Assembly: GCF_020520425.1 (NCBI RefSeq)
Contig: NC_079490.1
Coordinates: 6,882,001-6,946,000 of the forward strand
Direction of reading: 5' to 3'
Origin: Spinacia oleracea
Taxonomy: Eukaryota; Streptophyta; Magnoliopsida; Caryophyllales; Amaranthaceae
Length of the DNA stretch: 64,000 nucleotides
This document shows, piece by piece, positions 10,033-52,229 of this stretch (position 1 is the first letter of the stretch; each line of letters opens with the position of its first letter). Below the pieces are notes generated by a model, which was given only the letters and a program-made list of their open reading frames with translations, had not been told where the DNA came from and did no database searches. A program made the position numbers and the translations under genes.

Positions 10033-12066
10033 GCACATCCTTATCACATGACACAAGAAGCCTCACATTGTAGATCTAAGTCAAGTTTATGCAATAATAG
10101 AAGAGCAAGCCAACCAATTTGATCAAAGTAATGTAACCCAAAATGCAAATAAGTATTTCTCAAACTTACTGGTTAAGTCCATGAAGTACATTTTGCTCCT
10201 CCTCTTCCTCCAGCAGGAAAGGTAACAAATTCATTCACCTTTCAAATCACCTTCTACACAATGCATCCGCTGCCAATTGGATCAATCCGAGAACTTCTGT
10301 GTAGCACGTTAAAGCATCTGCATTTTTAACTCGGTTGGTAAAAGGTAAATAAAAAATCGGGAAGTTTCAAGGACAGAAACAAAAACTATATGGGTTTTAA
10401 GAACCAAAGGGAAGATTTCTTTTTCTAAACAAGATACAAATTCAGATGCAATATAATGACATTAATGAGAAGTAACAGTATCACATATCTCACTACAGAA
10501 GTACAGAACCTTCTTGAAAAGCAGAACGATGACACTAGTCGTTGCTTTTTGAATTATGTGGTACCAATCACATTTCTGGATCCCCAAACTTGTGTCTAAA
10601 AGGCAGATATTCGATTTCTTTATCAAATATAAGGAAATAAAAGCAGAAGTTCTACCACCTATAATAAAAGAAATCTGGAAGAGTTATTACATCGTAGCCC
10701 CTTACCATTGCACAACAATTATCGGGTTTCAGAGGAATCATTAGTTTCAGAAGTTATTAATGCAGATATGAAGATATTGAATACACATAATAAGCACTAA
10801 AACGGTTCTGAGCCGCTTCCTCATTTTGGCCAGCACTTACCAGTACATTACCCTCGACCATTGGAAGTTGGGAGCAAAAGGAGTAACGCAAACAAATGAC
10901 AAGTAAACTGAAAACAGCACCTGCAATTTACATTATTAGAGAAAGTAGAGCTCAAGGAAATCCAAATTATTACTCTTTCATAATGTAGAATCGGAAAATT
11001 TTCCTTATCTAGCAGTCCTTGCTAATTCTATATACTAGACAGATTCCCTTGGACAAAGAGTTTTAGTAATTGGAATATAATTCTATAATCAGCTATTAAT
11101 GCAATGTTTCCTTTTTTTTTATAGTCAGCGCAAGATTGCAATACTATGCAACACAACATTTCCGATGCATATGCAATACACAGCACTAGGGGAGAAGGGA
11201 GAAGCATTCTCCTGAAGAATTTTCTGTACTCCACCATAAGGTAGCATTAGCTTTAAAAAGAAAATATAGCAAGCTGCTAAAACAAAATAAATGTTCCACA
11301 GCAGGATAAAAATTTAACTATTTTTGTGTCTGAATATTCAAGTAAAATAATATTAGAAATAAAAACCATTAGAGCTAGATTCCAGAAATATATACAACAA
11401 CAGTGAAAGTGGAAGGTCCATACATGTACAGTTTAGCAAAATTTCTCTCAATCGTTATTCAAACTTCACCATGGTCTATTATAATTGTCTAACTTAATTC
11501 GAAAAATAATTAGATAATCCTCATCATCAATCCACCATGAATTAGTTTCCTCAACCCTCAAAAATGGCAAAGAGTGGAAGGTCCATACATGTGCAGTTCA
11601 GCAAAATTTCTCTCAATCGTTATTCAAACTTCACCATGGTCTATTATAATTGTCTAACTTAATTCGAAAAATAATTAGATAATCCTCATCATCAATCCAC
11701 CATGAATTAGTTTCCTCAACCCTCAAAAATGGCAAAGAGGGGAAATGTATAAAAGGTAAAAAGAGCATGTGCTACTAGAAAATACTTCGTAGGAAGTAGT
11801 GAAATGGGAATGTAACTAAGAGGTATCAAAAATTTCCAGAATTATCAGCAGTTAGGATTAAAAAAAAAAAAAAAAGCAAAGGTGGGTAATGACATAAAAT
11901 GCAAAAATTGGTGAAACATATGGGATACTGATATGAGTAGAATTCCTCCGAACTGAATATTCAAGAGTTGCTAAGTCCAGTGAAAATCAGTCATGGACAA
12001 TGCAGTCGAAATGTTAAACTAATAATAATATACAGGGGGGGCACAACAAACACTACAGATGAATGT
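10033..12066. other. Intergenic and 3' region of PPR gene, no gene seen
   Basis: This carries the 3' flank of the minus-strand PPR gene and otherwise AT-rich DNA. The frames of 60-70 codons here lack motifs and codon structure. The one defined feature is the 165-bp tandem duplication at 11409-11738. Confidence 0.5.
11409..11738. repeat. 165-bp tandem duplication
   Basis: Two head-to-tail units (11409-11573 and 11574-11738), both starting GTGGAAGGTCCATACATG and ending in AAAATGGCAAAGAG-like sequence. They differ at only about three positions (for example GTACAGTTT versus GTGCAGTTC), so the event is recent. No coding content. Confidence 0.92.
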
Positions 12067-32505: not shown

Positions 32506-32562
32506 AAATCGCAAATGTGAACTGATCTCACCATCGGTTATTGGTAAAGACAGTCTCATATA

Positions 32563-32821
32563 CTTCCTCCGTCTTTTAATACTCGCAACGTTTGTTAGTT
32601 TCACGCATGCCGATGCACAACTTTGATCATTTATATGTTAAATTCTCTTTATGCAAAAATTATAAAAAGTTGATATTTTGAAAATACACATTAAGACGAA
32701 TCTAACAAGATCCCACATGACTACGTTTTATTTTATATAAAAAACACTACGAATAGTCAAAGTAGATTATATGAATAGTGGAAAAAGTCCAAACGTTGCG
32801 AGTATTAAAAGACGAAGGAAG
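32563..32821. mobile_element. Stowaway-type MITE
   Basis: CTTCCTCCGTCTTTTAATAC at the left and its inverse GTATTAAAAGACGAAGGAAG at the right, with TA on each side (32561-32562 and 32822-32823). Length 259 bp. It lies about 100 bp upstream of the HtrA-like gene start. Confidence 0.92.
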
Positions 32822-32921
32822 TAAGAATTTGGGTATAAACAATGTTAATTACAAAACGATGCTTCTGCGGTAAAAAAAACTTATTGGGTTTATCAGTATT
32901 CAGTAATAAATCTGATTAGCA

Positions 32922-35900
32922 ATGAGGGAAAGCTTGGGTATCAACGACGAAGGGAAGCTGGTTTTTAGAAAACGCAAAAGCCACGTCACTTTCGAACCTT
33001 TCCTTGATCATCCCGATCCCGACTGTAATTTCTTCTCTCTTTAATTTACATACTTCGTACTTTTTTATTAATCAATTCTATTTTAATTAATTATTGTTTT
33101 TAATTTTCTTTCGCAATGCAGTGCTCTCCTATGACGATGAAATTCAACACAAGTGTAAGTCCATTCTTTTCAAAATTCGATTTTTTTCGCTGTTTTACTA
33201 ATTAAGATACTAATTGTTATTTCAATTCTACTTTTTTAGACCTGAATAATCCAGAGGAGGTTGAGGCTGACACTGGTTAGTAATTTTTTTTTTCATAATT
33301 TCATCGAAATTTTATTGTAGTTAAAAGTTGATAACCTAATTTAAGCTTAAATTGGTTTCCTTGTTGCTTTAAATTGATGAATGGTGATCAATTGAAGGTT
33401 AAATTGCCTTTTTTTGGGTTTTTGTTTGTTTCTTTTCCTGAGAAATTATAGTCGGAATGGGGTTATGGGGATGAATGGAGATCATGATTCATGAACAGGT
33501 TTGTTAGGGCAGGATGACCATTGATTCTTTTCTGTATTAGCAACAACTACCCGCCCGTCATCGTCGATAACCATGATCAATTGAAGGTTAAATTTTTGGG
33601 TTTTGTTTGGGTAAAGGTCAGAGAAATTATAGTGGGAATGGGGATGATTTAGGTAGCACGGAAACGGGTACGGGGACAAATATCGGGACAGGTACAGAAA
33701 CGTGAAACGGCAAAATCAAAATTTCATAAGTACGGCAAGGGGATGGAAAAATAGTCCCCAAAAAAATTTTAAAAAAAAAATCAGCCACAAAAATATCAAA
33801 GTTTGGAAAACAGGGAATTATGGGTTACTGTATTTTTTTTCAACAGACGATTATATATTAATTGGCCAACGCCTTAAAGAGTTACACAACAACATAAAGC
33901 AGTAGCAGTAAGTAAGGCACAAAGATGACAGTAAGGCAAAAAGATGGCAGTGGCAGTAGCAGTAGCAAGAAACAAAGATGACGGTAGCAGTAGGCAGTAG
34001 TAAGAAACAATAACATACAACAGCTACTTAAATCAATCCTCGACCAACTGAGAAATTATTCCCTTTTTTAATGGGTACTTATATTTCTAGCCCGAAACGT
34101 CCCAAAACGTACCCGGCTCATCCGTTGACCTGTACCATGTCAATTGACTGTAGCCGAATTTTGGAGACGAATCCGGGACGTTTCCTTGAGGTACCTGTAC
34201 TGTACCCGTACCCAAGAGGTACCGGTACGGATACCTCTGGAAATAGAAGTATCCGTGCATCCTAGGATAATTATGAACAGGTTTAGGGCAAGGATGACCC
34301 ATGATTTTTGCTGTAATGACAACAACGGCCCGCCCCTCATCGTCAAAACCCATGATCAATTGAAGGTTATATTGTCTTCTTTTTTCTTTTGGTTTAAGCT
34401 TACAGTTGTGGACTTGTGGTATTTTTAAAGTAATAGTTGAGTTATTTTTTTCGCTCTTAAAACAAAATAGTTGAAGTTGTATTGTATATAAGCTAGTTTT
34501 ACACATCTTTTTCTGTTTACAGTGTGTACTTAATTTCTTTGACATTATATGTTGCCAGAATGTCGACCTGAAAAGGACTCGCTTTATAGGCTGGGGTATA
34601 AATACCCTATCAGGCACGCTTACTTGGTCCATTCTTTTGAGGAGAAATTTGCGGGTATACAATTTGGTTCCTATAAAGATCCAGTTTTTCAAGCTACTCA
34701 CTCTGTTGTATCTCTTACTTCTTTCATAGGTATCGTATTTTTCTGTCACTAATTTGGTTCACTTTCATTTTTCGTAATTCTGCCAGTGCTCGACCATCAT
34801 GTTTGGTTGGTTAGTTCTCACTTTAAGTAGTTTTGAATTAACTTTTCAGATAACACGCGGTTGTTTACTTGTTCCGGTTCTGTAATTGAAAGTAGTAATG
34901 GCCAATCCACTATCTTGACTTCTGCTTGTTTGATTGCAATTTCAAGTGATGATGGTGCTCTTACAGCTGCTGAAAATGTCAAGGTTGTGTGTTATTTACT
35001 TATTTATATTTTCCTCTTCAGCTGCCCGCATAATATTTCTTTTCCCCCTTATTAGGCTTTATTATTTTCTGAGGCCAAAATTGGATTGTTTTAGATCCTC
35101 GTACATTTTAATGACGGTCCAGCCAAGACTGCTTCTTTGCTCGGGTGTTGTTTGCACTACAACATTGCTTTTGTCAGGGTTGACAAAGAACATCGAAGAG
35201 TTTTGCCATTGGAAGGGAAAGGAATAGAGTCGGCCTCAGAGGCTGTGTTTGCCTTGGGTAGAAACTATGTGTCTCGAAACTACATGGTTGCAACTGGTAA
35301 AATTACATTGAAAACCAACAAATTTTCCTGTTTAGAACTTATGTTCTCAAGCTGCAAGGTTACAAAGGTATGTGTATACGGACTTTTAATTATATTGCTA
35401 TTGATTATTTAATCCTTCCACCCCATATTTGCTTCCAATCAGATGGCATAAAGATTATGATAAGTTGTTAACGTAGAATAAAATAATGTAATGGGTAGAA
35501 GAAGAAAATACATAAGAGAAAATGTTAGAATGAAGAACGATAAAGTGGATTGATGTGATGAAGAGAAAAAGGGACTTTTTACTTTATTAGAAAGGAAATG
35601 GCCAAATGGGAAGGTTATTTGGGGTTTCCTTAACCGGAAAGTTGGTTGATCTTATTTAGGGAGTATTTTATGTTTGTTGACTTGTTGTAGTGGTTGATCT
35701 TATTGTTTTTCTCATTTGCCGTTTTTGGGTTTGGTTATTTTAATTAATAAAGCAATGTTATCAGTTGTATAACAATGTTTTTAGTAGTTATCTGTCTTAT
35801 AAGTGACAGGCTAAAGTCGTATCACCTAATCAAAGATAAAACCTAAACTCACTAGCTAAGTAGCAAGGGAAGTCAGGATCGAATCCACAGTGAAACATCG

Positions 35901-38900
35901 TTCTTTCTACTACTAAAACGATAGGTCTAGACTATTGGTAGTAACAAAAAGGTTGATTAATACTACGGCGATAATAAAATACGAAAATATCAATATTAGA
36001 AGAATTTAGGGTGACGGTTCACCACAAATGCAGACTAGGGATTGATGACAGACACTAATAAACAATTAATGGCCATAACTAGGAAAACATGCATCTCTCG
36101 AATCTTATGGATTCCTTAGGAAATTACAACTAGCAGGCTCATAGCCACAGATCATGAACATCAGATTTATACCTCTCGACGCATAATCTAAAATTCATCA
36201 AATTCAATCAAAATAGTCCGGCCGAACAGAATTGACGAACAAACAAAACAAGCTATAGAAATTATAACTAAAATTCAAATACATAAGTCTAATAAAATCC
36301 CCAATCATACATTTATGAATCGCCTAAACCCTAGAAATTAGACTACTCACTCATATTAATAAATAACAAAGCAAATAATATTATTGGAAACATGATTGAA
36401 AACAAATAATGAAATAAAGAACTAATTGAAATTGAATGATAAAGACAAGGAATGAATTAATACCTATTTGACGAACAAGGAAATAATTGAAAGATTAAAA
36501 CTTGAATTGAAACTAAAATTAAGTTCTATGAATAATTGCTAAGTAAAAGTTCTAATACTAGGAAATAGAGTACGGAATCACGAGAGAGTTTACTACCAAA
36601 AACTAATTTAATATATATAGCCTCCCCCTTAAACCTACGGAGAGAAACGAGCAAAGAAATAAGGGTCGGGACCGAAAACCGGGCACCCAGGTTCTGGGAA
36701 ACCAGCCGGTTTTCGGCCCTTCCCAACATAGTAAAATTGCACCGGTTTCGCACCTAAAACAACAATCCTTCGTTTCTCAAAACCTGCCGGTTTTCGAATA
36801 CCGGGGCCACAGGTTTTGAGGATATTTTGCCGTATTTGCCTTGAGCTTGAATCTTGAGGCCCAAGCCCAACTCTTTTGGGTCTAATTTGCCGTTTGTGGC
36901 CCCTTGAAGTTGGCTAGATCATCTCGTACATGCTAGGGATCTGTGTAGTCATCCAGGAATAATAGAAAACGGGTCTCCAAAGACCAATTATCATCAAAAA
37001 GCGGTCCTGCAACTAAAGACACTACACAACACATATTAGCACTAAAATAGGCTCCGAAGAGCTCAAATGAGATGAAAAGTGCATACGGGACGGGGGTAAA
37101 AACTATATAAAATATGAGTGTATCAATAAGTTCCTGTCTTAAAATTTCTTGCCTTTCCTCATTCATTCATTATCATTACCCCATTAAAGAGGCTCCCGCA
37201 AGAAGCGGGGTAAAGGGGGGTCCGGTGTACGCAACCTTACCCCTGCAATTGCAGAGAAGTTGTTTCCAATTAACCCAAAAGCGATAACAGGACGACAACA
37301 AGAAGACCATCTTCTACTTCATGGAAAGGAAGCGAAGAGGTTTTAAGAGCCATTTTGATTTAGTCCATTACATCCCACAGCCAAAAGAACAAATGAATCT
37401 TTGGGTCCCTCGGAAATGGACATAATTTCTTGCCTTTCCTATTTATAATTTTTACTCTATGTTCCCACTTTCTTGTGTCTTGCTAATAAGGATAAGTCCA
37501 TTTCCCTACCAAGTAGAAATGCAACAGAAAAAGTGTTTATTAAGCAATGTCCTATAGCGTATTACAAGCTAACCCCTGTTTTTATATCATAGCTAGGTCA
37601 GACCTTGGCCTATATCTTCACCTTTTCCATTGATCAAGTCATCAACATCTGATGTCTCCCCTTCATATCTTGACCCAACAATCTCCATGATTACTACTCC
37701 CTCCGTCCCTAAAAGACTGCACTCCTTTTTGGGATGCTCCTTTAAGTTTGCCCCATATCGAAGTATGGTGACTTTTTTCACTTTCTCTCTCTCTCTCTCT
37801 CTTTCTCCTCATTGGCCCAATTTACCCGCTCTCTCGCTCTCCTCATTGGCCCAATTTACCAACTTATACCCAAATATTAATAAAGTGAAGTTTGGTCTAT
37901 AGGGCAATCTTGTAGGAAGGGAGGGAGTAGTTCAATAATTGAAATATTAAGCAAGCAATCATTAAGCCGACTTGTGGATTTGTACAACGTTCATTTATTA
38001 GGGTTGGGTAGGCCGGTAGGGAAGGGAAGGGATTGAGAATGGGGAGGCATCGTTGTGAGCATAGTAATGATGGCGCGTAGCTTATAAGAGAAGCAAGTAG
38101 AACAAGAGGATGAAGATTGGAAATCATCCTGTTTTCATACTAAAATCTCCTTCCTTGACGTCTGGACTCCTGAAAATGGAACTTCAGAAACATTCCTTGT
38201 GATAGTTGAATTCAGCAAATTGGGTTTGGTAAGAGAGGAGTTAAGGAATGTGTTTTTGTGAAGGGTTTCTATCAACTATATGAAGAGATAAAGGTGGGCT
38301 TTCTGGCCGGTTGGTGGTGTTCATGTTGCTGTCCACAGAAGGAAACTGGTCTAGGACTCTAGGAGTCTAGGTACAGGGGATTTGTTCCAGTTTAATATCT
38401 TCATTTCAGGTTTTTCTTTGCCCACTACAAGACTGGAATTGTCACTATTGGGCAGGATGGGACAATGTTTCTCCAACCCAAGACCTTATCTCTTTACTTT
38501 TTGAGTCAAAGCTATTGTGTGACCCTTTTGTAAAACGTTCCTAGAAAATGTTGTCTTCTTCAGTAATTGGATTAGTAGTTGTTCAGTAATTGACTAATTG
38601 GTTATTAGTAGTTGGACTGCTTTGCTTTGACAACTCATCCGAGGACTTCTAATTTAGGCTATGTTCTGTTCACCTTATTCACGCTTATTTCAGGAAAAAT
38701 AAGTTTAGTTAAGTTCAGATAAGATAAGTTCATGAAAAATAAGGGTTGACCAAGTACAATTTATAACTAAAATAAGTTCAGATAAGTTCTTGATTATATT
38801 AATTATCAAACTTTAACACGTCATTGAATAGGATGTTTCTTTTGTGCCAGTGTGGTATTGGTGGTCCCCTTGTAAATTCCCGTGGAGATCTTGTTGGAGT

Positions 38901-41900
38901 CAACTTCCACGACGACAAAGATGATACTCCGTACCTTCCAAGTTCTCTCGTCCTGAGATGTTGGGTGCACCTTAACACTTACGGGTACGTGATGCTCTTT
39001 AATTTGAATTAAGTTAATGTACATGTGGAGTACTTTTGTTAAAGAAATCGCGGTTACAACCTATAAGCAAACTGTTGACATGTATTGTTTCTTCGTTGGT
39101 TTTTTCATTCATAGCATCATAGGTTACTATATGAAGTGTTTTACATTTAACTTTCTGTGCAAAAGCTATGTTCTCTTCACTTTATTTGTTTAGGAACTTA
39201 GTACTAGACCAATCAGAAAGATTCAACACACGTACTAGATCAGATTAACCTTTTTCAGAATATGAATCTTTATTAATATCCTAAACTACATATTATTAGA
39301 AAAATAATGAAATATCATATTTTCAAAATACACATTGAAATGAATCTAACAAGATCCCTCATGGTAATATTTTTCCTAATCTAATAGTAATACATAGGAA
39401 TTGTCAATCGGACTAGACAAGAAAGATTTTGACAAAACCACAGTCCCGCACTAGGAGTCCACAGATCCACTTCATGCAAGGCAGACTCCGACCAAACCAA
39501 TTTATGAAAAAGCTCAAGGTGAACTAAGGCGATTGTTGTCCTGCTTTGAGTGTGCCTCGTTGAAGAGAGGTGCACTTAATACATGATACGAGAAAAAAGA
39601 AAATTGCGCGCCTTGATCAATTTCACTTCAGATGTGCCTCAGAGGAGCGCCTTTGAATGCACCTTGCCTAGCTTTAGGAAAGTGCCTAGCACATTTTTCA
39701 TACACTGGACCAGACCACACAACCTAATTGTTTAAGATTGACCAGACCACATAACCTAATTGTTTAAAATTGACCAGACCACACGAGAAGGATTTAGACC
39801 AGACCACACAATATGTATGTCTAAAATTTATATTTTCGCATGTGAGTATGTGACCGTGCTACGTGGCACTAAGAGAGTGCCGCACTTTTTGTTATACTCT
39901 TTTCCAAAAATGCCTTTGATGTATGACACTAAAAACCAAGATTTTGGGGCTTCTAGTTGTTTGTTATTGCCCCTTTACAGTTTACACTGCCTGCCCTTCC
40001 AAATGAAGTCTTTTATGGTTGAGTTCTCTGCTATACAGAAAATATCTTCCTTGGTTCATTCTTTGTAACCACACGCCTAAGAGCTAACGAGTCTTTTTTC
40101 AGAGATTGTTCACTGTCAATAATCTTCTTTATTTATCGAATGAACATATGCATATATGTGTATACATAAGTACGTGCATATTTCTACCTTTGGTGAAGTC
40201 ATTATTAGGGTCACATAATACGGTCAGTGCCTGTTCGTACTCCGATTTAGTACGATTCGTACTAATACGAGTACGAAATCGATCTAATTCGACCCAATAA
40301 TCGAGTGGATCGATTTCTAGTCTTCTTCGCCGAATCGCTATTGTTATTTTGAAGCTTCATCACGAAAATGGAGAATGGAGAATGTAGGCGTGAAAATGGA
40401 GGAGGGAGAAAGAAAGAGGAAGGTGAAGAGAATGAGGTGGGGAAATTAGGTTTAGCTTTTGTCTTTACTCTTTACGACATACAGCTGTGTTTTTTATTTT
40501 TTTATTTTTTTTGATAGGAAGACAGCTGTTTGTGGCTGATTTTTTTTTTTTTTGTTTTATTTTATTTTTGGAAGGAATCTTTAACATTCCCTTCATTACT
40601 CCTTACAAGTTACGAGATGGCAGTTTTTATCCTTCTGTTTTAGGATTTTTTTTTCAAATTTAAATGAAATCGTATTATGTTACCGAAAACCGTATTTAAA
40701 ATTAATCAAAACGTATTACAAATACGACCACCTCTCGTATTCCGTACTCGTATTACGTTTCCGTACTAAATCGTACTACGTATTAGGTGACCCCTGGTCA
40801 TTAATGTTCAACATTATAATCTAATGACCTTGTGTGTGCTAGTTTATCGAATAATCTATATTTTTTGAATGTTGCTTTGTGAATGGATTACCCTAGTAAT
40901 TACCAATTTATTAATCAATCTCATAAGATCCACATTCTACCTCTAACTCTGTTAAACCAATTCGTACATTTTAAAATATATTGCTAGTTTTGCTTTTGCT
41001 AAAGCTGTTTATAGAGAGGGTTTATATTTGTTCCGAATCATCAACTTAATCTTGATTAACAAGCCATAATGACCAAATTATTTGTATAAATCATATTAAT
41101 TGCAATATTGTGTGGTTCAGTACTTCAGTTCAATTGATATATGTTTCATTTAAAAAAGCCTCTTGAATATTTTGAGCATCTCCTGAACCATAAACCTTTA
41201 AAGTGGGCAGGCTCATTGCTTTTAGCACTGTAATTTGACCATCTATTGAAATTCAAACCTTAAGAAAAGCTCCAGGAGTGCAGGGGCATAATTTTAGATT
41301 TCGAGAGTGACTATAAGCTGCTTCCTATCATCGTAGTTGGGAAATTAAGCCATTGATATTTAAGAATGTTGGCATTCTTAGAGAAGACTTAGTGGAGAAC
41401 ACTTTGGATTCGTATAGATTCTAAGAAGACTTAGTGACTCAATGAGTGTATTGTTTTGAGGTCAATGGCGGAGCCGATGGAAGAAATTATTGATTGATGG
41501 ATAATGTGGTTTTTTTTTTTAGGTAAACTGTGGTGGTAACTGAGTAAACTGACTAAGTGGTGGTTAAACTGAGGTAACTGAGTAAACTGACTAAGTGTGT
41601 GTTTGCGTGTGTGTAGAAGTTTGAGGTGGATAGTATTGGTGCTTTGACGAAAATGATATTTAAGTTGTCATTCTCTCCTACTTGTAAAACTCTCACAATT
41701 CTTTGTTATTGAAGTGAAATAATGTAAGATTACCTATAAATTCTGCTAAAGTCCACCTGACATGTTTGTAGTGTTCGGTGCACAAATAAAATTTGTATGA
41801 TTGACATGTTGGTTTGTTGGGGTAATGATACACAATTTTGTAGGTCTGTGCATCATCTCCATTTCGGTTGGAAAATCAGATTGTTTAGACAAATGGAATT

Positions 41901-43011
41901 TGAACTGCGGGAGAAGATTTACTGGCATTATAAACTTATAAAACTTCCACCGCTTAAACAGGAGCAGAAATCTGAGAGTTCCTTATCTGAGGAGACCAAC
42001 AAGCTTCATATAATTAATGATGGCCTTTTGGTAGAAGAGGTAAAATGTCTTCATCTTTTTTTTGTTGGTTGTGATCCTATGCAAGGTTTGGGACTTTTTG
42101 CTCTTGTCTGCTTGAATTTTCAATTATATTTCAGGTAGCAAGAAATTCACCAGCATACAAAGCTGGAGTTAGAGATGGTGATTTTATTCTTAAACTTTTT
42201 GGAGAACCTGTTGTCACATTACCTGTACCCGAGGTAGGTTTATATCAAATATTGATTTTTAACTTTGTTCTACGAGGTTTCAATTGGTGCGTAAAGTTCA
42301 TATTGGGATAAGGTAGTCCTGTGAGGCCGTGACCACTATTTAATATTTATTGCATTGACACTGTCTTTGTGGGTGATGGCAGTATGCTGCAACTCTTTTG
42401 GACAAATCAAAATTTATGCCAGGAAAAGAAAAAGTTAAAGTTCAGGTCAGTTGAGGATTTTAGTTAATTTGTAACTAATTTTCTGAGTAATTGGTTTTTT
42501 TTTTCTTTAGATCTACTGTATGTAATTAAGCTGTCCTCGTGTTTGAATGTTCAAATCAGGTAGAATTAGTGAGGCAAAATGATCAGCGGAATAGATATCT
42601 GACAATTGACGCTACCAAGCTCAGTAGCAGTAACTTTTACAGGTATGTACTCCGTGTATTTTGTAATATATTGATATAAAATATGTGGTGTGATGGGTGG
42701 CTTAACATGTTGGGGATTCTGTTAATTTATCTATTGTCTCGTCTCAGGTGGCCAGTGCCACGTGCGGAGTGGAAGTTGTTGAAACCAGGTAAGGCAGCTC
42801 ACACTAAATTTATAGTCACGTTTATAATTGTACTTTCTCAATGTTTTGATTATAGTGTCTTCTTTTCCTCTTCGTTTCTTTTGTATAAAAACAAATCGTT
42901 ACCTTATTGCTTGTGATGTTCCAAGTAGTTCATTCTGCTTGTTTTCGGGATTTTATTCTGTTCTAAACTTGCTATCTTATAGAATTAGATTCTGTATGGA
43001 CGCTGTTATGA
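32922..43011 (+). CDS. HtrA/DegP-like PDZ protein with degenerate protease triad, copy A
   Basis: Reconstructed from 13 exons with GT/AG borders: 32922-33024, 33122-33154, 33240-33275, 34559-34729, 34850-34983, 35095-35367, 38851-38984, 41844-42039, 42135-42233, 42383-42445, 42560-42642, 42748-42788, 42983-43011. They total 1395 nt (464 aa) with no frame break. The fold is trypsin-like S1C: SVVSLTSFI, TCSGSVIES, ILTSACLIA, HYNIAFVRV, VFALGRNYV, CGIGGPLVNSRGDLVGVNF. A PDZ domain follows (GLLVEEVARNSPAYKAGVRD, then GDFILKLFGEPV). The catalytic His, Asp and Ser positions read Cys (TSAC), Asn (YNIA) and Ile (GIGGP), so proteolysis is not expected. There is no transit peptide; RKRK near residue 17 could be nuclear-targeting. 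Exon 4 onward is strongly supported by the tail-to-tail paralogue at 44671-52121. Substrate or partner unknown; a chaperone or adaptor role via PDZ is possible. Confidence 0.88.
33490..33641 (-). repeat. Antisense exon-1-like unit in intron 3 of copy A
   Basis: On the minus strand this reads ATGGTTATCGACGATGACGG, then GCGGGTAGTTGTTGCTAA, with ATCATCCCCATTCCCAC and TATAATTTCT flanks. It resembles exon 1 of the gene (GGTATCAACGACGAAGGG, then GATCATCCCGATCCCGACTG, TAATTTCT), but in opposite orientation to the gene. A further unit follows at 34265-34370, split off by a hAT insertion, and a degraded unit end lies near 33445-33490. Confidence 0.7.
33650..34264. mobile_element. hAT MITE inserted into an antisense unit
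   Basis: It starts TAGGTAGCACGGAAACGGG and ends AGTATCCGTGCATCCTA, with 8-bp near-duplicates GGATGATT (33642-33649) and GGATAATT (34265-34272). Interior GGTACGGGGAC/GTACCCGTACCC blocks form inverted arms. The antisense exon-1-like unit resumes directly at the right border. Confidence 0.85.
34265..34370 (-). repeat. Second antisense exon-1-like unit, right part
   Basis: The minus strand reads ATGGGTTTTGACGATGAGGG, then GCGGGCCGTTGTTGTCATTA and CCTGTTCATAATTATCC. It joins the left part (GATCATCCCCATTCCCAC-like, ending 33649) once the hAT element is removed. Confidence 0.65.
35804..37125. mobile_element. Probable solo LTR or TRIM-like element in intron 6 of copy A
   Basis: A 1322-bp block starting TGACAGGC and ending TGTATCA, framed by an exact 5-bp duplication ATAAG (35799-35803 and 37126-37130). 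TG...CA ends plus a 5-bp duplication are what a solo LTR leaves. The interior has no protein motifs; it contains GTCAGGATCGAATCCACAG, which I have seen in non-coding parts of plant retroelements. Family not identified. Confidence 0.65.
37160..37423 (-). mobile_element. SINE-like retroposon, copy 2 (minus orientation)
   Basis: The reverse complement aligns end to end with 9746-10014 (shared blocks GATTCATTTGTTCTTTTGGC, CTTCGCTTCCTTTCCATGAA, GGTAAGGTTGCGTACACC). It is bounded by its own 17-bp duplication AATTTCTTGCCTTTCCT (37143-37159 and 37424-37440). It sits in intron 6 of copy A, antisense to the gene. Confidence 0.85.
37697..37927. mobile_element. Stowaway MITE in intron 6
   Basis: CTCCCTCCGTCCCTAAAAGA at the left and TTGTAGGAAGGGAGGGAG at the right, with TA on each side. 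Length 231 bp. A (CT)n run lies inside at about 37784-37805. Confidence 0.88.
38655..38800. mobile_element. Harbinger-like fragment in intron 6
   Basis: GGCTATGTTCTGTTCACCTTATTCACG followed by AAGTTCAGATAAGATAAGTTC repeats the subterminal style of the element at 13574-15215. No right end seen. A related 5' piece recurs at 39168-39215 (TATGTTCTCTTCACTTTATT). Confidence 0.5.
39708..39810. repeat. Short tandem repeat ACCAGACCACACAACCTAAT
   Basis: Two near-identical units of about 32 bases (CCAGACCACACAACCTAATT, then GTTTAAGATTGA) are followed by two partial units in intron 7 of copy A. Confidence 0.9.
40206..40796. mobile_element. hAT MITE with TACGATTCGTACTAATACGA arms, intron 7
   Basis: The 591-bp element starts TAGGGTCACATAATACGG and ends CGTATTAGGTGACCCCTG, with 8-bp near-duplicates GTCATTAT (40198-40205) and GTCATTAA (40797-40804). 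The arms carry inverted blocks rich in CGTACTAATACGAGTACG. Confidence 0.88.
41523..41600. repeat. Tandem duplication GGTAACTGAGTAAACTGACT
   Basis: Two copies of about 38 bases (GGTAACTGAGTAAACTGACT, then AAGTG) lie in intron 7 of copy A. Confidence 0.9.
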
Positions 43012-44670
43012 CTACGTCGTGGTAGAAGATGATGTCCAACACTTGAAGGCCGAAGGTTGTGGTTCGTTTAACACAGAGGTTCTTTTTGATGGATATATGT
43101 TATATGTAATGTGTTGCCATTTTGAATTAATATTTTATACCATGATACGGACCAATTGAGGCACATGATGCGACTTACCTCCTCCACGATGCTCGAGTAA
43201 CCGGGCTGTAGGGCAAGGGTTTCTCCTTTTGGGATATTATACGATGATGATTAAGCTAATGTAAGTAATGAAATGTTTCTTATCAAAGCAGACAGCCAGA
43301 CAGTGTAATGTAAATATGCAATGTTAATATTCTCCAACTTAGTCTTTGCACTTGGTTTTACAGAGTACTCCGTGTTACGCAGTGATTAGTAATGTAACTC
43401 GAATATGCTATTTGGAAGAACACCAAATTACAACTTGAAAACTGCAGAATTTAGTTGGTAATACCTCCGTTTTAAAGTAGTCTTTACACTTTTCGTTTTA
43501 GTCTGTTTCATAATGTTCTTTATACTTTACTTTATTTTACATTTGGACATTAATTTACTACCTTACCCTTCTTATCCTCATAATATTTATAATTTTTCAT
43601 TCACTTTCTCTTATTTTATTCATTTTTTATTTCAACCACCCACCTTTGTACACCTTTTTCGTACTTTACCCATATTTTATTACAGTGTATATTCAACCAA
43701 CTTTTCTACTTTTATCTTAATATTTGCACAAATAAACGATATGGGTCAAGGTCTCAAGGATATAACGGTTAGCGTAATTACAAGTAATACTAAAAAAATC
43801 TATCACTTTTAACATACATTATATCTCGGAGAACGGGAGAAGGGGTGCTGCTAATGTACTTTTTATATCAGTTTAAACATACATTAATGGCCCGAATTAA
43901 AACAAAGTCCGCAAGCATAAGCTACGATGATGTTTAGAACTTTTACACGACAAAACCATTAACTAGTTGTACTAGCAAAAACAAACAAACTAAAAACTAA
44001 AAACAAGAAACCCAAACTCATAATCTGCACTAACATTGGCTGTGTGACTTTGGAACTGCATCCTGTGTAAAGGAAAACTTCTACCTTTGCTTTCCGGTTT
44101 CCACGGGCAGCCGTTGGCGATTTTCTGTAGTACTTCCTCTGTTTCGCAATAGATGCATCATTTCTTTTTTCACGTATCCCAACATGTTTCTTTGAACATT
44201 AATATCTCTAATTACGTGTAAGTAAAAATTATAAAAAATTGATATTTAAAATCCTCACATTGATACCAATTTAACAAGATCTCACTTGACTAATGGTCAA
44301 AGTTAGTTAATGAATAGTGTCCAAAAGAGAGATGATGCATCTATTGCAGAACGGAGGAAGTAGTAAGGAAGAAAAACCTGTAGAAACAATGGTAATAATC
44401 GGATAGTAGAACCCTTGCGTTGTTGTGGTACCAAACTTTTGATGGAAGTTGTGGGAAGAAAAAAACCCTTACACTAACTACCAAAAACTAGTGGTTGATA
44501 CTTTGAGCTCAGCTATTTACAGTTTTCCGGGAATTGAACTAATTTGTCTAATTACAGAAGAAATACCAAGATTAGGATGATATCTTATCCAAATAAGCAA
44601 AAATGTATTCCTCGATTTCCTATCCAAACATAGTGTTTGAAGAAGCTTAATAATGTCATGACAACATATG
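43012..44670. other. Spacer between the tail-to-tail HtrA-like genes
   Basis: It holds both 3' flanks, a one-ended Stowaway-like sequence (ACCTCCGTTTTAAAGTAGTC at 43465) and a complete Stowaway MITE (44133-44360). No additional gene. The region 43540-43700 is pyrimidine-rich. Confidence 0.55.
44133..44360. mobile_element. Stowaway MITE between the paired genes
   Basis: CTTCCTCTGTTTCGCAATAG at the left and CTATTGCAGAACGGAGGAAG at the right, TA on both sides, 228 bp. It is closely related to the element at 45124-45351. Confidence 0.93.
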
Positions 44671-47600
44671 TCAATCACTTGGTTTAATCTCCCACTCCGC
44701 CTGTGGCAGTGGCCACCTGGGGGAGAAGACATTAGAAATTAGCACGATTTAAAAAATCTGTACCATCAAAGTCGCTGCTACGTTGGCCATATGTTTAAAT
44801 CAATAGACTACAAAATATACGTACCTGTAAAAGTCCCTACTACTGAGCTTGGTAGCGTCAATTGTCAGATATTTACTATCTATTTGAGAATGAGTACTCT
44901 TCCTCAGTATCTTTACCTGATTTTGAACATTCGGGAAAAGAGCTTTATGATTGGTTGAAAAATAAAAATTAGGTCAAAACACAATAACCAATAAACTTCA
45001 CAACTGACCTGAACTTGGACATTTTCTTTCTCCAGCAGTAAGTTTGACTTCTCAAGAAGAATTTCTGCATACTGCCATTGCCATCACCAACAATCATAAA
45101 GCCGGTGTCAATACAAAATTATACTACCTCCGTTTCACAATACTTATATCATTTTTGAACATTAATATCTCTAATTGTGTACAAGTAAAATTATAAAAAT
45201 TTGATATTTGGAATCTCTCATTGATACGAAATTAACAAGATCCCACTTGATTACGTTTCTTCTTACATAATGGTGAAATAAACATTGTCAAAGTTGATTG
45301 ATGAATAGTGTCAAAATGAGAAACGATGCCGGTATTGCGAAACGGAGGTAGTACAAGCCAAAGGACTGCCTCAACAAATATGAACTTGGTAATTAAACCT
45401 CATAACTACGCTTAAGTTAAGTGTTGAATTTAAAGCTTACAGTAGGTACAGGTGTTGCCACAGCAGGTTCTCCAAAAAGTTCAACCGCAATATCACCATT
45501 TCTGATTCCAGATCTGTATGCAGGAGAGCTACTTGCTACCTATTACCATCAGTAAAATGTAAGCGTACAAGAGCGCAAAAATTGAATAGATAATCCAAGA
45601 AACCTTGCAATGAATCACAGCCAATAGAGAAGAGAAAGAAAGTATTACCTCTTCTACCAAAAGACAATCAAATGCAAATTCAAAACTCTCGCAGAGATTA
45701 TACAACAGCTCAGCGTTCATTTGTATAACAGGTCGGATTCTCCAACCGAAATGGAGATGTACCACAGACCTGTAAAATTGCATAACTCGTTACACACAGG
45801 ACCATATCCAATTTGGATTATCCATTAATTTGCAGATTTTTATGAACAACCTTGCATTTATTTCTCTTAAACAGCCAATAATGGTGAATTTTTTACAAGT
45901 AGGAAAAGATGACAACTAAAGAAACGCATTCACCTTAACACAAACTTCATCTCCCACTTTATCTAAGAACCATTGATGCCAACCAATACCATGGAAGCAA
46001 ATTATAATAGCAAAAAGTCATAGGAATCTCAGCAAGTCAGCTTTGCTAATCATGGCTACAATTCTGGAAATTCAACCTGAAAATAATTACCCTAGGAGGA
46101 AACTACCCACCACTCTGTAAGTTACATCCATCGATGACCTATCAAAATAAGCCAAGTTATAATCTGTCAATCACCTCAGGCATTGACCCTAAAACTCTGG
46201 CTGCACTTCCTCAAATTACCTGGCAAGCACCACTTTTGTCAACTTAACAAAGAGATACACACTACCAGATGAAGAGTGCCACATCCTCGTCATTTCATCG
46301 CAAATATCCATGTTACTATTTTTAAACCATGCATGTTACATGGGAAACATATCAATACCCTTACTTGAGAGGCTACAACTTTTAAAAAAATTTAAAATAA
46401 AATTAAAAAATACACATACACTCAATAAAATAAATAAAGAAAAAATGCATGTTAAATGTCAACTATTTTCTCTTCATATGTAACCACAAAATCTTAAACA
46501 AAACTACTACGCATTCCAAAAGGCTAATAAGTCAATCATGTATTAAAGAGCATCATGTACCCGTAAGTCTTAATGTGGTCCCAACATCTTCGAACAAGAA
46601 GACTTGGAAGGTATGGAGTATCATCTGTGTTGAAGAAGTTGACTCCGACAACGTATCCTTTGGAATTCACAAGGGGACCCCCAATACCACACTGGCACAA
46701 AATGGAGAATCTTAAAAGTTAAAACAACTCTATCCACCAACATGTTAAACTAAATAACTTCAAGGTTATATTTTTGTTAGACAAAAGCTCATGTACTAAA
46801 TTTGTCATCATCGTGAATGGAGATCAATGTATCTAGGTGACTAGGTGATCTATTAAACTGTATAACATACTGAAATAATGATATTTTAGTAGTTAATTTG
46901 GTTCCTAGCATTGCCAACAGCCTGACAGGTTGAAACAAATGATAAAATAATACAGTAACAGGTAGGAAAATGATGTATTAGTAGAAAAAAATTGAATATG
47001 TGCCATGCTGCCATTGAAGATTAACACAAATAGAAACTCGGGAAACTTTTGATGCATCATTACTTCACTGGAAGCTACAAACTTTCCTGCCCTGGGAACA
47101 GGGGGGGGGGGGGTAGCCGACCGTGTAGGTACACTAATATAAACATAATGATTGTTTCACTAGATCGTGATTTGAAGAACAAGAGGCGTAAGGATATCTC
47201 GAAAAGTTAAAGCCGTTGGTTTTATGAAGTACATTTCCTAGAATAGCCGTTTAAAAATTGAAACATTACAAAATAGCCGTGTGATTGGCTGGCTGCTCTG
47301 CCACAGCCACATTGACACGGGAAGTTAGCGTTTAAAGGGAAAAAAATTGCTAAATGCAAGTCAAAATTTTGCGTTTTGACAAAGGCCTCTACATGGGCCA
47401 TTTTTGTTGGCATTTAGTCAAAATAAAAATAAAGTTATCCGAATTGTATGGGCCCACTTCACACGATCCAAGGTGATGAGATACTCACACAGTGAAGAGA
47501 TATCATCAAATGAGGAAAAAAGTCTCATGAATGTAGTTCATGATAATAAATAAAAATAAAAACAAATCCCCCAAAAAAATTCACGAGGAAAATAATCTCA

Positions 47601-50600
47601 CAAGTGGAAGTGATTAGGTTTTAATTTTTCTAATCTTAGATAATTCAAGTTAGAAAGGATGGGATCAACCTACTAGGAAATCAAATTCTCTCTTCTTTTA
47701 CTTTTTAAATTTTATATAAAGTATCAAATCGCAGTGTCTCACATTTATTAGAGGCAGCATATCCTAGGGATGCCTCTTTCACCTCACTACTGAGCTTGGA
47801 ATGATAATATAATATGATGTATGGAGGACATTGCCAATTTCAAATACTAAAGAGTGGAGAGTGTATCACAGAGACTTCAACATGCCACGTCACCCTAAGC
47901 TCCTTTTCCCATTTTACCCTATTGACTCTATTTTTCGCATAATCCACATGAAGATCAAGTCATTTTGCTGTTAATTATCCACCAAATTACATTATACCAT
48001 CAACATGCCCAAAATTTCAATTCAAACAAAGAAATAATCTTTGGGGGGGGGGGGGGGGGGAACTCACCTAAGTTTGGAGCAAAATGGATTCAATCAGCCT
48101 TCAAATTCATATCTAGATGAGGTTAGCAAGTTTAAGGCCTTCCCAACATATCTTGTAGAAATTGCCAGACTTCCAGGTATAATATCAGCAAAGAAGGATG
48201 AAATTGCGTTTTGAGTAATTACTCATCGAGGATTTGTGAAATCCTAACTTTAGCCTAATGAAAAATAAACGACTTTAGAAATTATGTTTTGAGTCGGCGA
48301 ATAACTAGTGAATCTAGCAAATGAAATAAAGAGAAGAATACAAAAATTCAGTCTTTTAAGAGATTGAAACTAGCATGAATAAAGAGCTCAACATTTCAAC
48401 CCTTATCACAACTCTTATCAGACCTCACTCTCAGGTGTTCTTTCAAAGATGCAAGCTCTCATACTTAAAAATGGAGTCAACTTCTCTCTCACACATTCAT
48501 TAAAAAAAACTCATAGTCTTACTCTAATCCCATGAGAAAATCTCCTATGCCATTGACAATCTTCCAAGTCACCCCGAGGTCCCCGGCACTTCCTAATTAG
48601 CACTTCTGAAATAGTGAGTGATCCACAATAAAGGAATCTCCAGTGATCAACCATGACCCCTTTATTCTACAATTAACCACATTCCAAACATTTAGTGAAC
48701 TAGAAAATTGCACCAAGAAAATTTGTGACCTATATGACCATTCTCTAAGCACGAAACAAATGGATCTTAGATACAGTCAACAAACCTAACAACTTTCAAC
48801 AGGAAATTTCATGGAAACAACACACTAACATAGATCCCATTCAAGACAAGGTATCCAGGGAAGTCCGAATGTATGCAAACTTATCCTTAAATAATAAATA
48901 ATCACAAAATATTGGTTGGTTTTCAAAAGATTCATATAACCAATTTTTTCAAATAAATTTTCTTTTGACTGGCAGAGGAAGTGAGAAAGACATTTAAAAC
49001 AGTGATAATCAAATATATTAACACATAAGTAATACAGATAAGTAGTTGTTGTAAATAAATAATAAAAATGTTACTAATATAGTAATATATCAAGCAAATC
49101 AAAATAAGTGGTGCAATACAGTAACGACAAAGACAACAATAATATCAGCCATAACCACAATGGAAAATATTAACTAATCTTTTCAATTTAAGATATCCCA
49201 AAATAATATTCAAACTTTTAGTTAAAGTCAGTTTTTCTATCAATCACATCAATATACATGTTAGAACTAGAAGTGTGTCTATTGTACATACCTTTGTGAT
49301 TTTGCAACTTGAGAACATAAGTTCAACACAATCAAAGTTATTTCTCTGAAATACAGATTCACCACTTGCAACCATGAACTCCTGAGACACATAGTGTCGA
49401 CCCAAGGCAAACACAGCCTCTGGCATCGACTCCATTCTTTCCCCTTGTAGACATAGAAGTGATAGAACATCTTTATGGTGTTTATGAACTCTAACAAATG
49501 CCACATTGTAATGCAAACAACACCCTATCACAGAGGCCTCATAAGCTGGACCATCTGTAAAATGCACAAAGATCTGAAAAATCAAATTTTGACATAGGGA
49601 TTAGAAGATATCTGATGTGAACAAAGGGAGAATAATAAAACATAAAAGGTTTTCTGAAAAGGAATTTTTAGATTACCACACAACCTTGACATTTTCCGAG
49701 ACTGCACGGGCACTTTCACCATTTGTAGTTGCAACTAAACTAGCAGAAGTCAAGATAACAGCACAACCATTGGTGCTCTCTATTACGATTCCAGAACATG
49801 TAAATAATCTCTTGTCATCTGGATACAATAATAAACACCAGACACTAAGAGGTAATCAACTGACTTGTTGGGCAAGCACGAGAAAAACTAGTACAACTTC
49901 CACTTTTTATCAACATCCCACTTTGACTTCCACTTTTACCAATAAACAACTTTAATCATCGTTATTTTCATTTCTATGGCTAAAAATTATAAAAAGTTGA
50001 TGTTTTGCAAATACATTCACACAAATCCAAGAACACATTAAATGAGAACATTTGTTTTTATATATTACTACCTAACTACCTCTGTTTCTTTTTATTGGTT
50101 AAGTTTTCCACTTTTCTTCATTCCTTTTCTTGGTTACACTTTTGCATTCTTCTATTTTAGCTAACTTTTTCTTACACAAACCCAGGTTACAACACTCTTT
50201 TTCTTACTTTCTCCTACAAAAACCCTGTTAACGATACTCTTTTTCCTACTTTTTCTTAGACATGCTCCAAATTTTACACTCTCTCACAGTCTCACCTACA
50301 TTCCTCGTTCTGTGTAGCTACCAATAAGATTCCATACTGGATGATTGACTCATTCCATACTTGAAATAACAGCGGGAAATCCTTTGATAACATGGATTCC
50401 TATTTCTCAATGATATCCCAAGATTTAAACAATTGGTGAATCCATAAAACCATTTCATAGAAGTTCATTGATACATTCTTTTATAAAGAAAATCAACTTC
50501 AATACTGGAATAATCCACATCGGTTATGCTTCTATTGTAACGTAAGTAACATAGGGAAGTAGGGAACAGAGGTAGTAATAGAAAATTTTGGTCAAAGTGG

Positions 50601-52121
50601 GACAATTGATAAAAAATGGAGGGATTAAGTAATTGTAATGCAGATAATAGATTATTCAATTTCTTTCTTTATTAGGAAATAGAGTTTACAAATGATTGAT
50701 ACAGAAGAAAAATGAGATACCTATGAATGAACAAAGAGATACCACAGAGGGAGCCAATTTAAGGAGCATCAAGTTTAAAGTTTCATTAATATTAATGAAA
50801 TCTTCACCAAATTTCTGCTCAAACGAATGGACCAAGTAAGCGGGTCTGCCAGGCAATGGATACCCCAGCCTATCATAACTGTCCTTCAAAGATCGAAATT
50901 CTGGCAACATATAATGGGAAGGAAATAACTACAGACAGTAAACAAAAAATAAAACTATTCAAAACTAGCATACATACAACTTCTAATATTTTGTTTCAAA
51001 AGGCGAAAAACAACTTCAATAATATTCTAAGAGTATCAGTGTATCTGATTAGAAATATGGGAACGTATGGGTATCGACGATGAGGGGCCAGTGGTTGTTG
51101 TTAATACAGCAAAAATCATGGTTCATCCTGAGCCCAACAAGCCTGCCTGTTCATGATCATCCCCATTCCCACTGTAATTTCTCCAAGCTTAACCCAAAAA
51201 AAAAAAAGGCAATTTAACCCTCAATTGATCATGGGTGTCGACGATGATGGGCGGGTGGTTGTTACTAATACAGCAAAATCATGTATCATCATGACCCTAA
51301 GTCCCTAACAAACATGTTCATGATCACCCCCATTCCGACTGTAATTTCTCTGAGCTTTACCCAAACAAAAACCCAAAAAAGGCAATTTGACCTTAAATTG
51401 ATCATGGGTTTTGACGATGAGGGGCGGGTGGTGGTTGCTAATACAGCAAAAATCATGGGTCAACCCGACCCTAACAAACCAAAAAAAGGCAATTGATCGT
51501 GGGTAACGACGACGGGCATGTAGTTGTTGCTAATACAGCAAAAATCATGGGCCATCCTAACCCTAACAAACATGTTCATGATCATCCCCATTCCCACTGT
51601 AATTTCTATGAGCTTAACCCAAACAAAAACCCAAAAAAAGGCAATTTAACCTTCAATTGATCACCATTCATCAATTTGAAGCAACAAGTAAATCAATTTA
51701 AGCTTAAATTAGGTTATCAACTTTAAATTACAATAAAATTTCGATGAACTTATGAAAAAAGATTACTAACCAGTGTCAGCCTCAACCTCTTCTGGATTAT
51801 TCAGGTCTTAAAAATAGAATTGGAGTAACAATTAATATCTTAATTAGTAAAACAACGACAAAAAAATCGAATTTTGAGAAACATGGACTTACACTTGTGT
51901 CGAATTTCATAGTCATAGGAGAGCACTGCATGGCGAAAGCAAATTAAAAACAAATAATTAATTAAAATAGAATTGATTAATAAAAAAAAGTATGAAAATT
52001 AAAGATAGAAAAATTTACAGTCGGGATCGGGATGATCAACGAAAGGTTCGAAAATCCGGTAGCTTTTGCGTTTTCTAAAAACCAGCCTCCCCTCGTCGTT
52101 GATACCCACGCTTTCCCTCAT
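44671..52121 (-). CDS. HtrA/DegP-like PDZ protein with degenerate protease triad, copy B
   Basis: Twelve exons on the minus strand, all with GT/AG borders: 52121-52019, 51925-51893, 51806-51771, 50900-50721, 49818-49685, 49573-49292, 46691-46561, 45769-45649, 45539-45441, 45071-45009, 44916-44825, 44716-44671. They total 1320 nt (439 aa), in frame throughout. Exon sizes match copy A except for changes in multiples of three (exon 8 is 75 nt shorter, removing a charged linker before the PDZ) and a different last exon. Protease-fold motifs: CSGIVIEST, ILTSASLVA, HYNVAFVRV, VFALGRHYV, CGIGGPLVNSKGYVVGVNF. The triad positions are Ser, Asn and Ile, so the protein is again predicted inactive as a protease. 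PDZ: CLLVEEVASSSPAYRSGIRN, then GDIAVELFGEP. The C-terminus is WPLPQAEWEIKPSD. Partner unknown. Confidence 0.88.
45124..45351. mobile_element. Stowaway MITE in intron 9 of copy B
   Basis: CTACCTCCGTTTCACAATAC at the left and GTATTGCGAAACGGAGGTAG at the right, TA on both sides, 228 bp, the same length as the element at 44133-44360. Confidence 0.93.
46692..49291. other. Intron 7 of copy B, content
   Basis: About 2.6 kb of AT-rich intron. A 63-codon minus frame at 47222-47413 has no family signature. Two long G runs are present (47101-47113 and 48043-48060). No transposon with both ends was found. Confidence 0.5.
48043..48060 (+). repeat. G18 homopolymer; a G13 run lies at 47101-47113
   Basis: Eighteen consecutive G, and thirteen in the sister run about 940 bases away, both in intron 7 of copy B. 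Such runs are rare in AT-rich plant DNA; the C-rich strand is the one in the transcript. Confidence 0.95.
51067..51662 (+). repeat. Array of four antisense exon-1-like units in intron 3 of copy B
   Basis: Units start at 51067, 51231, 51404 and 51499 (spacings 164, 173 and 95; the last is about 164 long). Each begins ATGGGTNTCGACGATGANGG or close to it, continues through GTGGTTGTTGCTAATACAGC, and three end with GATCATCCCCATTCCCACTG, TAATTTCT or close to it. The third has lost its right half. The unit parallels exon 1 plus the start of intron 1 of the host gene (GGTATCAACGACGAGGGG ... GATCATCCCGATCCCGACTG, TAA), but is inverted relative to it. Each unit also encodes a short frame (DDEGRVVVANTAKIMG), most likely a by-product of the exon-1 origin. 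Confidence 0.8.
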
Positions 52122-52229
52122 TGCTAATCCCGCAAGGGCTTTTGCCAAATCAAAATAATCAAACAGGACGGGAAGAGGTTAGCAAAATTGGAGTTAATTG
52201 TCAAGTAATTAATGATACATAGTTAAATC

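Follow-up and report, generated by a model that had tools for sequence, protein, structure and literature searches.

Inverted duplication of a target gene was reportedly put forward as a source of MIRNA genes by Allen et al. in 2004, and sirtrons were reportedly described by Chen et al. in 2011. The hairpins of sirtrons have both arms within one intron, and gene conversion between inverted paralogs leaves a sharp divergence step along the gene pair. Inverted repeats are treated as proto-microRNA (proto-miRNA) loci, and MIRNA genes as products of target-gene sequence duplicated in inverted orientation (PMC13128112). Sirtrons are treated as intron-derived small interfering RNAs (siRNAs) (PMC5545994), and pseudogenes as the origin of antisense siRNAs in rice (PMC2708354). 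The locus described here lies in a 64,000-nucleotide stretch of the Spinacia oleracea genome (RefSeq assembly GCF_020520425.1, contig NC_079490.1, positions 6,882,001 to 6,946,000), the whole of which is referred to as the window. It comprises two inverted neighbouring HtrA-like genes, gene A on the plus strand and gene B on the minus strand, each of which carries in intron 3 an array of antisense copies of the first exon of the family.

A preliminary description of this stretch had reported four plus-strand units in intron 3 of the minus-strand gene B and two or more units opposite in orientation to gene A in its intron 3. Both arrays were seen, the third B unit being truncated and the A units being one full, one split and one partial. 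The gene A array thus amounts to about two and a half units and the gene B array to four, one truncated, arranged head to tail with a period of ~173 bp. The features concerned are the following, with E values from the unit profile described below.

32922..33024, plus strand, gene A exon 1; peptide MRESLGINDEGKLVF...DHPDPD; 3' end at donor GACT/GTAATTTC
33276..34558, plus strand, gene A intron 3
33381..33582, minus strand, A unit 1, antisense to gene A; donor GT changed to AT; E 5.8e-50
33571..33649, minus strand, A unit 2, tail piece; donor GT changed to AT; E 5.6e-16
33650..34264, ~600-bp insertion interrupting A unit 2; boundaries approximate
34265..34362, minus strand, A unit 2, head piece; profile match reaches 34244 and is surest from ~34265; E 7.3e-31
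34350..34403, minus strand, A unit 3, partial; E 1.7e-8
50901..51770, minus strand, gene B intron 3
51066..51231, plus strand, B unit 1, antisense to gene B; E 3.8e-50
51223..51406, plus strand, B unit 2; E 7.5e-54
51396..51480, plus strand, B unit 3, truncated; E 3.5e-26
51490..51667, plus strand, B unit 4, corresponding in position to A unit 1; E 5.3e-56
52019..52121, minus strand, gene B exon 1; peptide MRESVGINDEGRLVF...DHPDPD

The unit profile was built from the 8 intron-3 unit pieces with no exon included, and a search of the window at E ≤ 10 returned 13 matches, comprising its own 8 pieces, the two exon 1 sequences and three matches at E 2.6-4.6. Exon 1 of gene A was matched at 32933-33039 on the plus strand (E 2.4e-10, score 35.0) and exon 1 of gene B at 52111-52002 on the minus strand (E 4.6e-8, score 27.6), both on the strand opposite to the units and colinear with the unit, and beyond the unit pieces and exon 1 of A and B the profile had no match at E < 1 in the window. 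The top profile score in 150 dinucleotide-shuffled windows was 10.2. When exon 1 was aligned locally with the two main array stretches, z values of 7.1 to 12.4 were obtained in the antisense orientation, with none of 500 shuffles scoring as high, and of -0.2 to -0.6 in the sense orientation. At aligned sites, the full units are 75-80% identical to exon 1.

The similarity between units and exon 1, which the preliminary description had proposed to check against background, therefore lies above it. Chance similarity of AT-rich sequence draws some support from a gene A fragment (34255-34400) that on its own is near background, but it is refuted by the 0/150 shuffled windows and 0/500 shuffles for the main stretches, and its probability is practically negligible. 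The antisense exon-1 copies in intron 3 of genes A and B are confirmed as a real and unusual gene anatomy.

Clear homology extends from about codon 4-5 of exon 1 to 15-19 nt past the intron-1 5' splice site (GACT/GTAATTTC), in agreement with the earlier observation that the units resemble exon 1 plus the first bases of intron 1. A gap-lenient alignment extends the homology further upstream than codon 4-5, and the start codon falls outside the clear homology. Because the likeness runs 15-19 nt into intron 1, the source of the units was genomic DNA. A retrocopy of mRNA, in which exon 1 would be joined to exon 2, is ruled out by this likeness, and the retention of the donor GT and the intron start in three B units also argues against a retrocopy. 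The donor was lost in both A units where it is readable. The unit peptide, MG(I/V/F)DDEGRVVVANTAK...HPHSD, is a version of the exon 1 peptide, with frame breaks or stops in B units 1 and 2 and A unit 1. In the head of the unit, 5/6 sites at which the consensus of the units departs from exon 1 of B are first codon positions, a number of sites too small for a codon-position test. The insertion at 33650-34264 ends in what look by eye like short inverted repeats (GGTAGCACGGA / TCCGTGCATCC); this element is perhaps a non-autonomous DNA transposon.

The assembly (894 Mb, 242 contigs) was searched for further copies, with match counts that are lower bounds. At E ≤ 1e-3 unit DNA gave at least 7 matches, at E ≤ 10 the unit peptide gave at least 5, and all of these (7/7 and 5/5) were located at the A/B locus. 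The insertion in the A array, and the fact that plant introns frequently contain repeats, would be in keeping with a dispersed repeat or transposon that resembles exon 1 fortuitously. However, as every unit match counted in the assembly is at this one locus, such an explanation, which the preliminary description had named as one that would undo its reading, is highly improbable.

A protein search of the assembly identified 21 exon matches, which belong to A, B, C (a paralog on the same contig as A/B), D (a paralog on contig 6) and weaker relatives located on contig 1. The four full units scored 67-99 against exon 1 of A and B and 31-49.5 against exon 1 of C and D. Exon 1 is present in both C and D (MKDNFGVDGNG..., by eye), and intron 3 is 80 bp in C and 79 bp in D, neither with an array, in a comparison that took in A, B, C and D. 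A family exon-1 profile with the C and D exons included, searched against four loci, found only the sense exon 1 of C and D and one match at E 3.4. The unit profile had no match at E ≤ 1 across eight loci, not even to exon 1 of C or D. As intron 3 of C and D is short and carries no array, the array would most simply have been gained on the A/B side of the family. The first exons of paralog C were found at L029:512-2846, with a likely exon 7 and PDZ exon ~44 kb off at L032:3019-4340, a layout that may mean that one intron is very long, or that there are two broken copies.

Genes A and B share a tract of low divergence that begins 8 bp before the ATG and ends inside the array.

32914..33583, plus strand, low-divergence tract, A side; 86.4% identical to 52129-51490, introns within it 90.5-93.5%
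51490..52129, minus strand, low-divergence tract, B side

Between A and B, synonymous divergence (dS) is 0.093 and non-synonymous divergence (dN) 0.069 over exons 1-3 (57 codons), compared with dS 0.582 and dN 0.27 over exons 4-7 (235 codon pairs, a few of which may be misaligned as the B sequence ran past the end of exon 7). Introns 1 and 2, and intron 3 up to the array, are 90.5-93.5% identical, and A unit 1 and B unit 4 are no more alike (89.2% at aligned sites, with 29 gap columns). As exons 1-3 and the first unit are far less diverged than exons 4-7, an exchange would have occurred after the A/B split, and gene conversion between these inverted neighbours was probably how the 5' module, from exons 1-3 into the array, came to be exchanged. 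The preliminary description had allowed for an array either present before the two genes diverged or exchanged between them, and for exons 1-3 and the first unit the low divergence favours exchange.

The reading we prefer, with a probability of about 0.74, is that the arrays began as an inverted partial duplication, grew by tandem amplification and were homogenised by gene conversion, and have no selected function. A genomic segment that starts at about codon 4-5 of exon 1 of an A/B-type HtrA-like gene and ends 15-19 nt into intron 1 would have been copied, inverted, into the third intron on the A/B side of the family. The copied unit was then amplified head to tail with the ~173 bp period, conversion between the inverted neighbours A and B would have homogenised their 5' modules into the array, and the array has since drifted at about the pace of the surrounding introns. 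The frame breaks and stops, the lost A donors and the insertion in A unit 2 count for this reading. The present direct effect would be a pre-mRNA, chiefly that of B, whose exon 1 and intron-1 5' splice site can pair back with the array, with siRNA or splicing effects, if there are any, a by-product that is not under selection.

Pairing was predicted between a query of exon 1 plus 17 nt of intron 1 and intron 3 of the same gene. For B, the energy was -99.6 kcal/mol compared with -62.1 +/- 4.7 for 200 shuffles (z -8.0, lowest shuffle -74.5), and for A it was -74.8 kcal/mol compared with -62.3 +/- 4.3 for 200 shuffles (z -2.9, lowest shuffle -76.0). Against 150 random 609-nt segments of the window, z was -5.3 for B and -2.7 for A and no segment was as low, but A's margin was slim (lowest control -74.5 vs -74.8). 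In the predicted fold of the 5' 1090 nt of B, 68/125 nt pair with the array, and three block-shuffled B arrays gave 0, 0 and 16; in that of the first 1000 nt of A, 33/125 nt do so. On these models B has a real potential for pairing and A a weak one, so that the capacity for double-stranded RNA proposed in the preliminary description is borne out by predicted folding for B and weakly for A. The proposed coverage of the start codon fared less well, as the start codon is paired in the B fold (probability unpaired 0.01) but likewise in the three shuffled-array controls (0.03, 0.20 and 0.11), lies outside the clear homology and is mostly free in A (0.71).

Ungapped 21-nt windows with ≤4 mismatches, G-U allowed, numbered 112 in B, compared with ≤42 in 30 control segments, and 48 in A, compared with ≤23 in 30 controls. 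This excess and the energy of the B duplex speak for a self-targeting hairpin of exon 1 and array that would, in the manner of a sirtron or proto-miRNA locus, be cut by Dicer-like enzymes, with putative siRNAs that would damp or methylate A and B. However, the full units reach only 75-80% identity to exon 1, A pairing is weak with one shuffle lower, and the best 21-nt windows have 2 mismatches, compared with 2 in A and 3 in B for the best controls. In addition, none of 4227 Rfam families matched at gathering score over 30000-56000, and the summed exon-array pairing energy was the same for own and swapped pairs (-174.4 and -174.4 kcal/mol). We therefore consider such a hairpin unlikely. A common fold of the four full units, with 25 predicted pairs of which 2 are changed on both sides, was not convincing.

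The array may instead sequester the intron-1 5' splice site or the start, making intron-1 splicing or gene output dependent on the fold. The best matching island spans the donor, and the donor stretch is mostly paired with the array in the predicted folds of both pre-mRNAs, but two of the three shuffled-array controls likewise pair most of it. Intron 1 is upstream of intron 3, and its removal would normally precede transcription of the array; sequestration is very doubtful.

Two results run against the similarity itself. The gene A fragment 34255-34400 taken alone is near chance, its score being reached by 45/500 shuffles for exon 1 of A and 11/500 for exon 1 of B, and no exon-1/array pair was listed when the window was compared with itself by blastn at E ≤ 1e-3. 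Several points weigh against the preferred origin by inverted duplication, amplification and conversion without selected function. No donor besides A/B exon 1 was found with unit DNA and peptide in the assembly or in paralogs C and D. The sisterhood of A and B relative to C and D would follow from protein identities of one exon rather than from a tree outside the tract (A exon 6 is 58% identical to B, 52% to C and 47% to D); exon 1, which is also closer between A and B than to C/D, falls inside the exchanged tract. The B pairing is well above chance (0/200 shuffles, 0/150 segments) and is used by the whole fold. At 12 exon-1 sites that differ between A and B, with cells counted where both alignments gave the same unit base, the B units lean to their own exon (7 cells match the B exon, 4 the A exon and 5 neither). 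The A units gave 3 cells matching the A exon, 3 the B exon and 3 neither, with no cell from the A unit 2 tail. Finally, a selection test on one genome and two conversion-linked genes is a weak one.

Nothing firmly indicates selection for maintained pairing, and a conserved function of the array is not supported, as A pairing is weak, the swap is neutral and site tracking is not clear. It is quite unlikely that gene B, and formerly A, regulates itself through an intron-3 antisense decoy of exon 1 that sets output via putative siRNAs or splice-site sequestration, with conversion spreading the damper among paralogs.

The remaining parts of the two genes are as follows.

33122-33154 and 33240-33275, plus strand, gene A exons 2 and 3, with intron 2 between them; splice sites by eye
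34559-34729, 34850-34983, 35095-35367 and 38851-38984, plus strand, gene A exons 4-7
~42129-42236, gene A PDZ-like exon
51925-51893 and 51806-51771, minus strand, gene B exons 2 and 3, with intron 2 between them; splice sites by eye
46558..50900, minus strand, gene B exons 4-7 (50900-50721, 49818-49685, 49573-49292 and from 46691); exon 7 end (46558) placed by likeness to gene A
~45539-45438, gene B PDZ-like exon

In Pfam searches with partial translations, Trypsin_2 was above cut-off in both gene A (E 2.7e-12) and gene B (E 1e-13), in accordance with their earlier description as HtrA-like, and PDZ_6 was below the curated cut-off in both (E 6.1e-5 in A, 0.27 in B). Active HtrA/Deg-like enzymes carry GNSGGPL, with the catalytic serine. 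Both A (38851-38984) and B (46691-46558) have CGIGGPL at the catalytic motif, in which the catalytic serine is absent, and from their predicted products the two genes are likely pseudoproteases. In intron 6 of gene A, stretches like CCGGTTTTCG are repeated in both orientations at 36600-36850 (by eye). An element resembling a miniature inverted-repeat transposable element is located directly upstream of gene A (32561-32823; inverted ends of 34 bp, 97% identity), and elsewhere in the window, at 11408-11744, there is a direct duplicate of 172 bp with 98% identity and an offset of 165 bp.

The case shows a route, inverted partial duplication together with conversion, by which self-complementary genes can arise. 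If the array were functional, the gene would carry in its own intron an antisense damper against itself, handed to its neighbour by conversion, and the locus would represent an early stage in the birth of a hairpin RNA.

Among the matches listed in a literature search covering titles and abstract openings within a limited licence range, no antisense exon-1 array in a gene's own intron was found. The A/B genes could work like the systems introduced above, and are classed as a member of none. A long self-hairpin, by which sirtrons and proto-miRNA loci are recognised, is predicted for B and weakly for A (z -2.9 and -2.7). As in proto-miRNA loci, part of a coding gene is inverted and one transcript can fold on itself, but here a tandem array within an intron of the same gene forms the second arm and the match is imperfect. 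As with sirtrons, a self-pairing RNA stems from the intron of a coding gene and might feed Dicer-like enzymes, but the arms are exon 1 and intron 3 rather than parts of one intron. The rice pseudogene siRNAs likewise start from partial copies of genes, with antisense able to encounter a functional relative, but they come from separate loci with sequenced small RNAs, whereas the copies here are in the gene's own intron. Like conversion between inverted paralogs, the A/B pair exhibits a sharp step in divergence, and here that step lies inside the antisense array.

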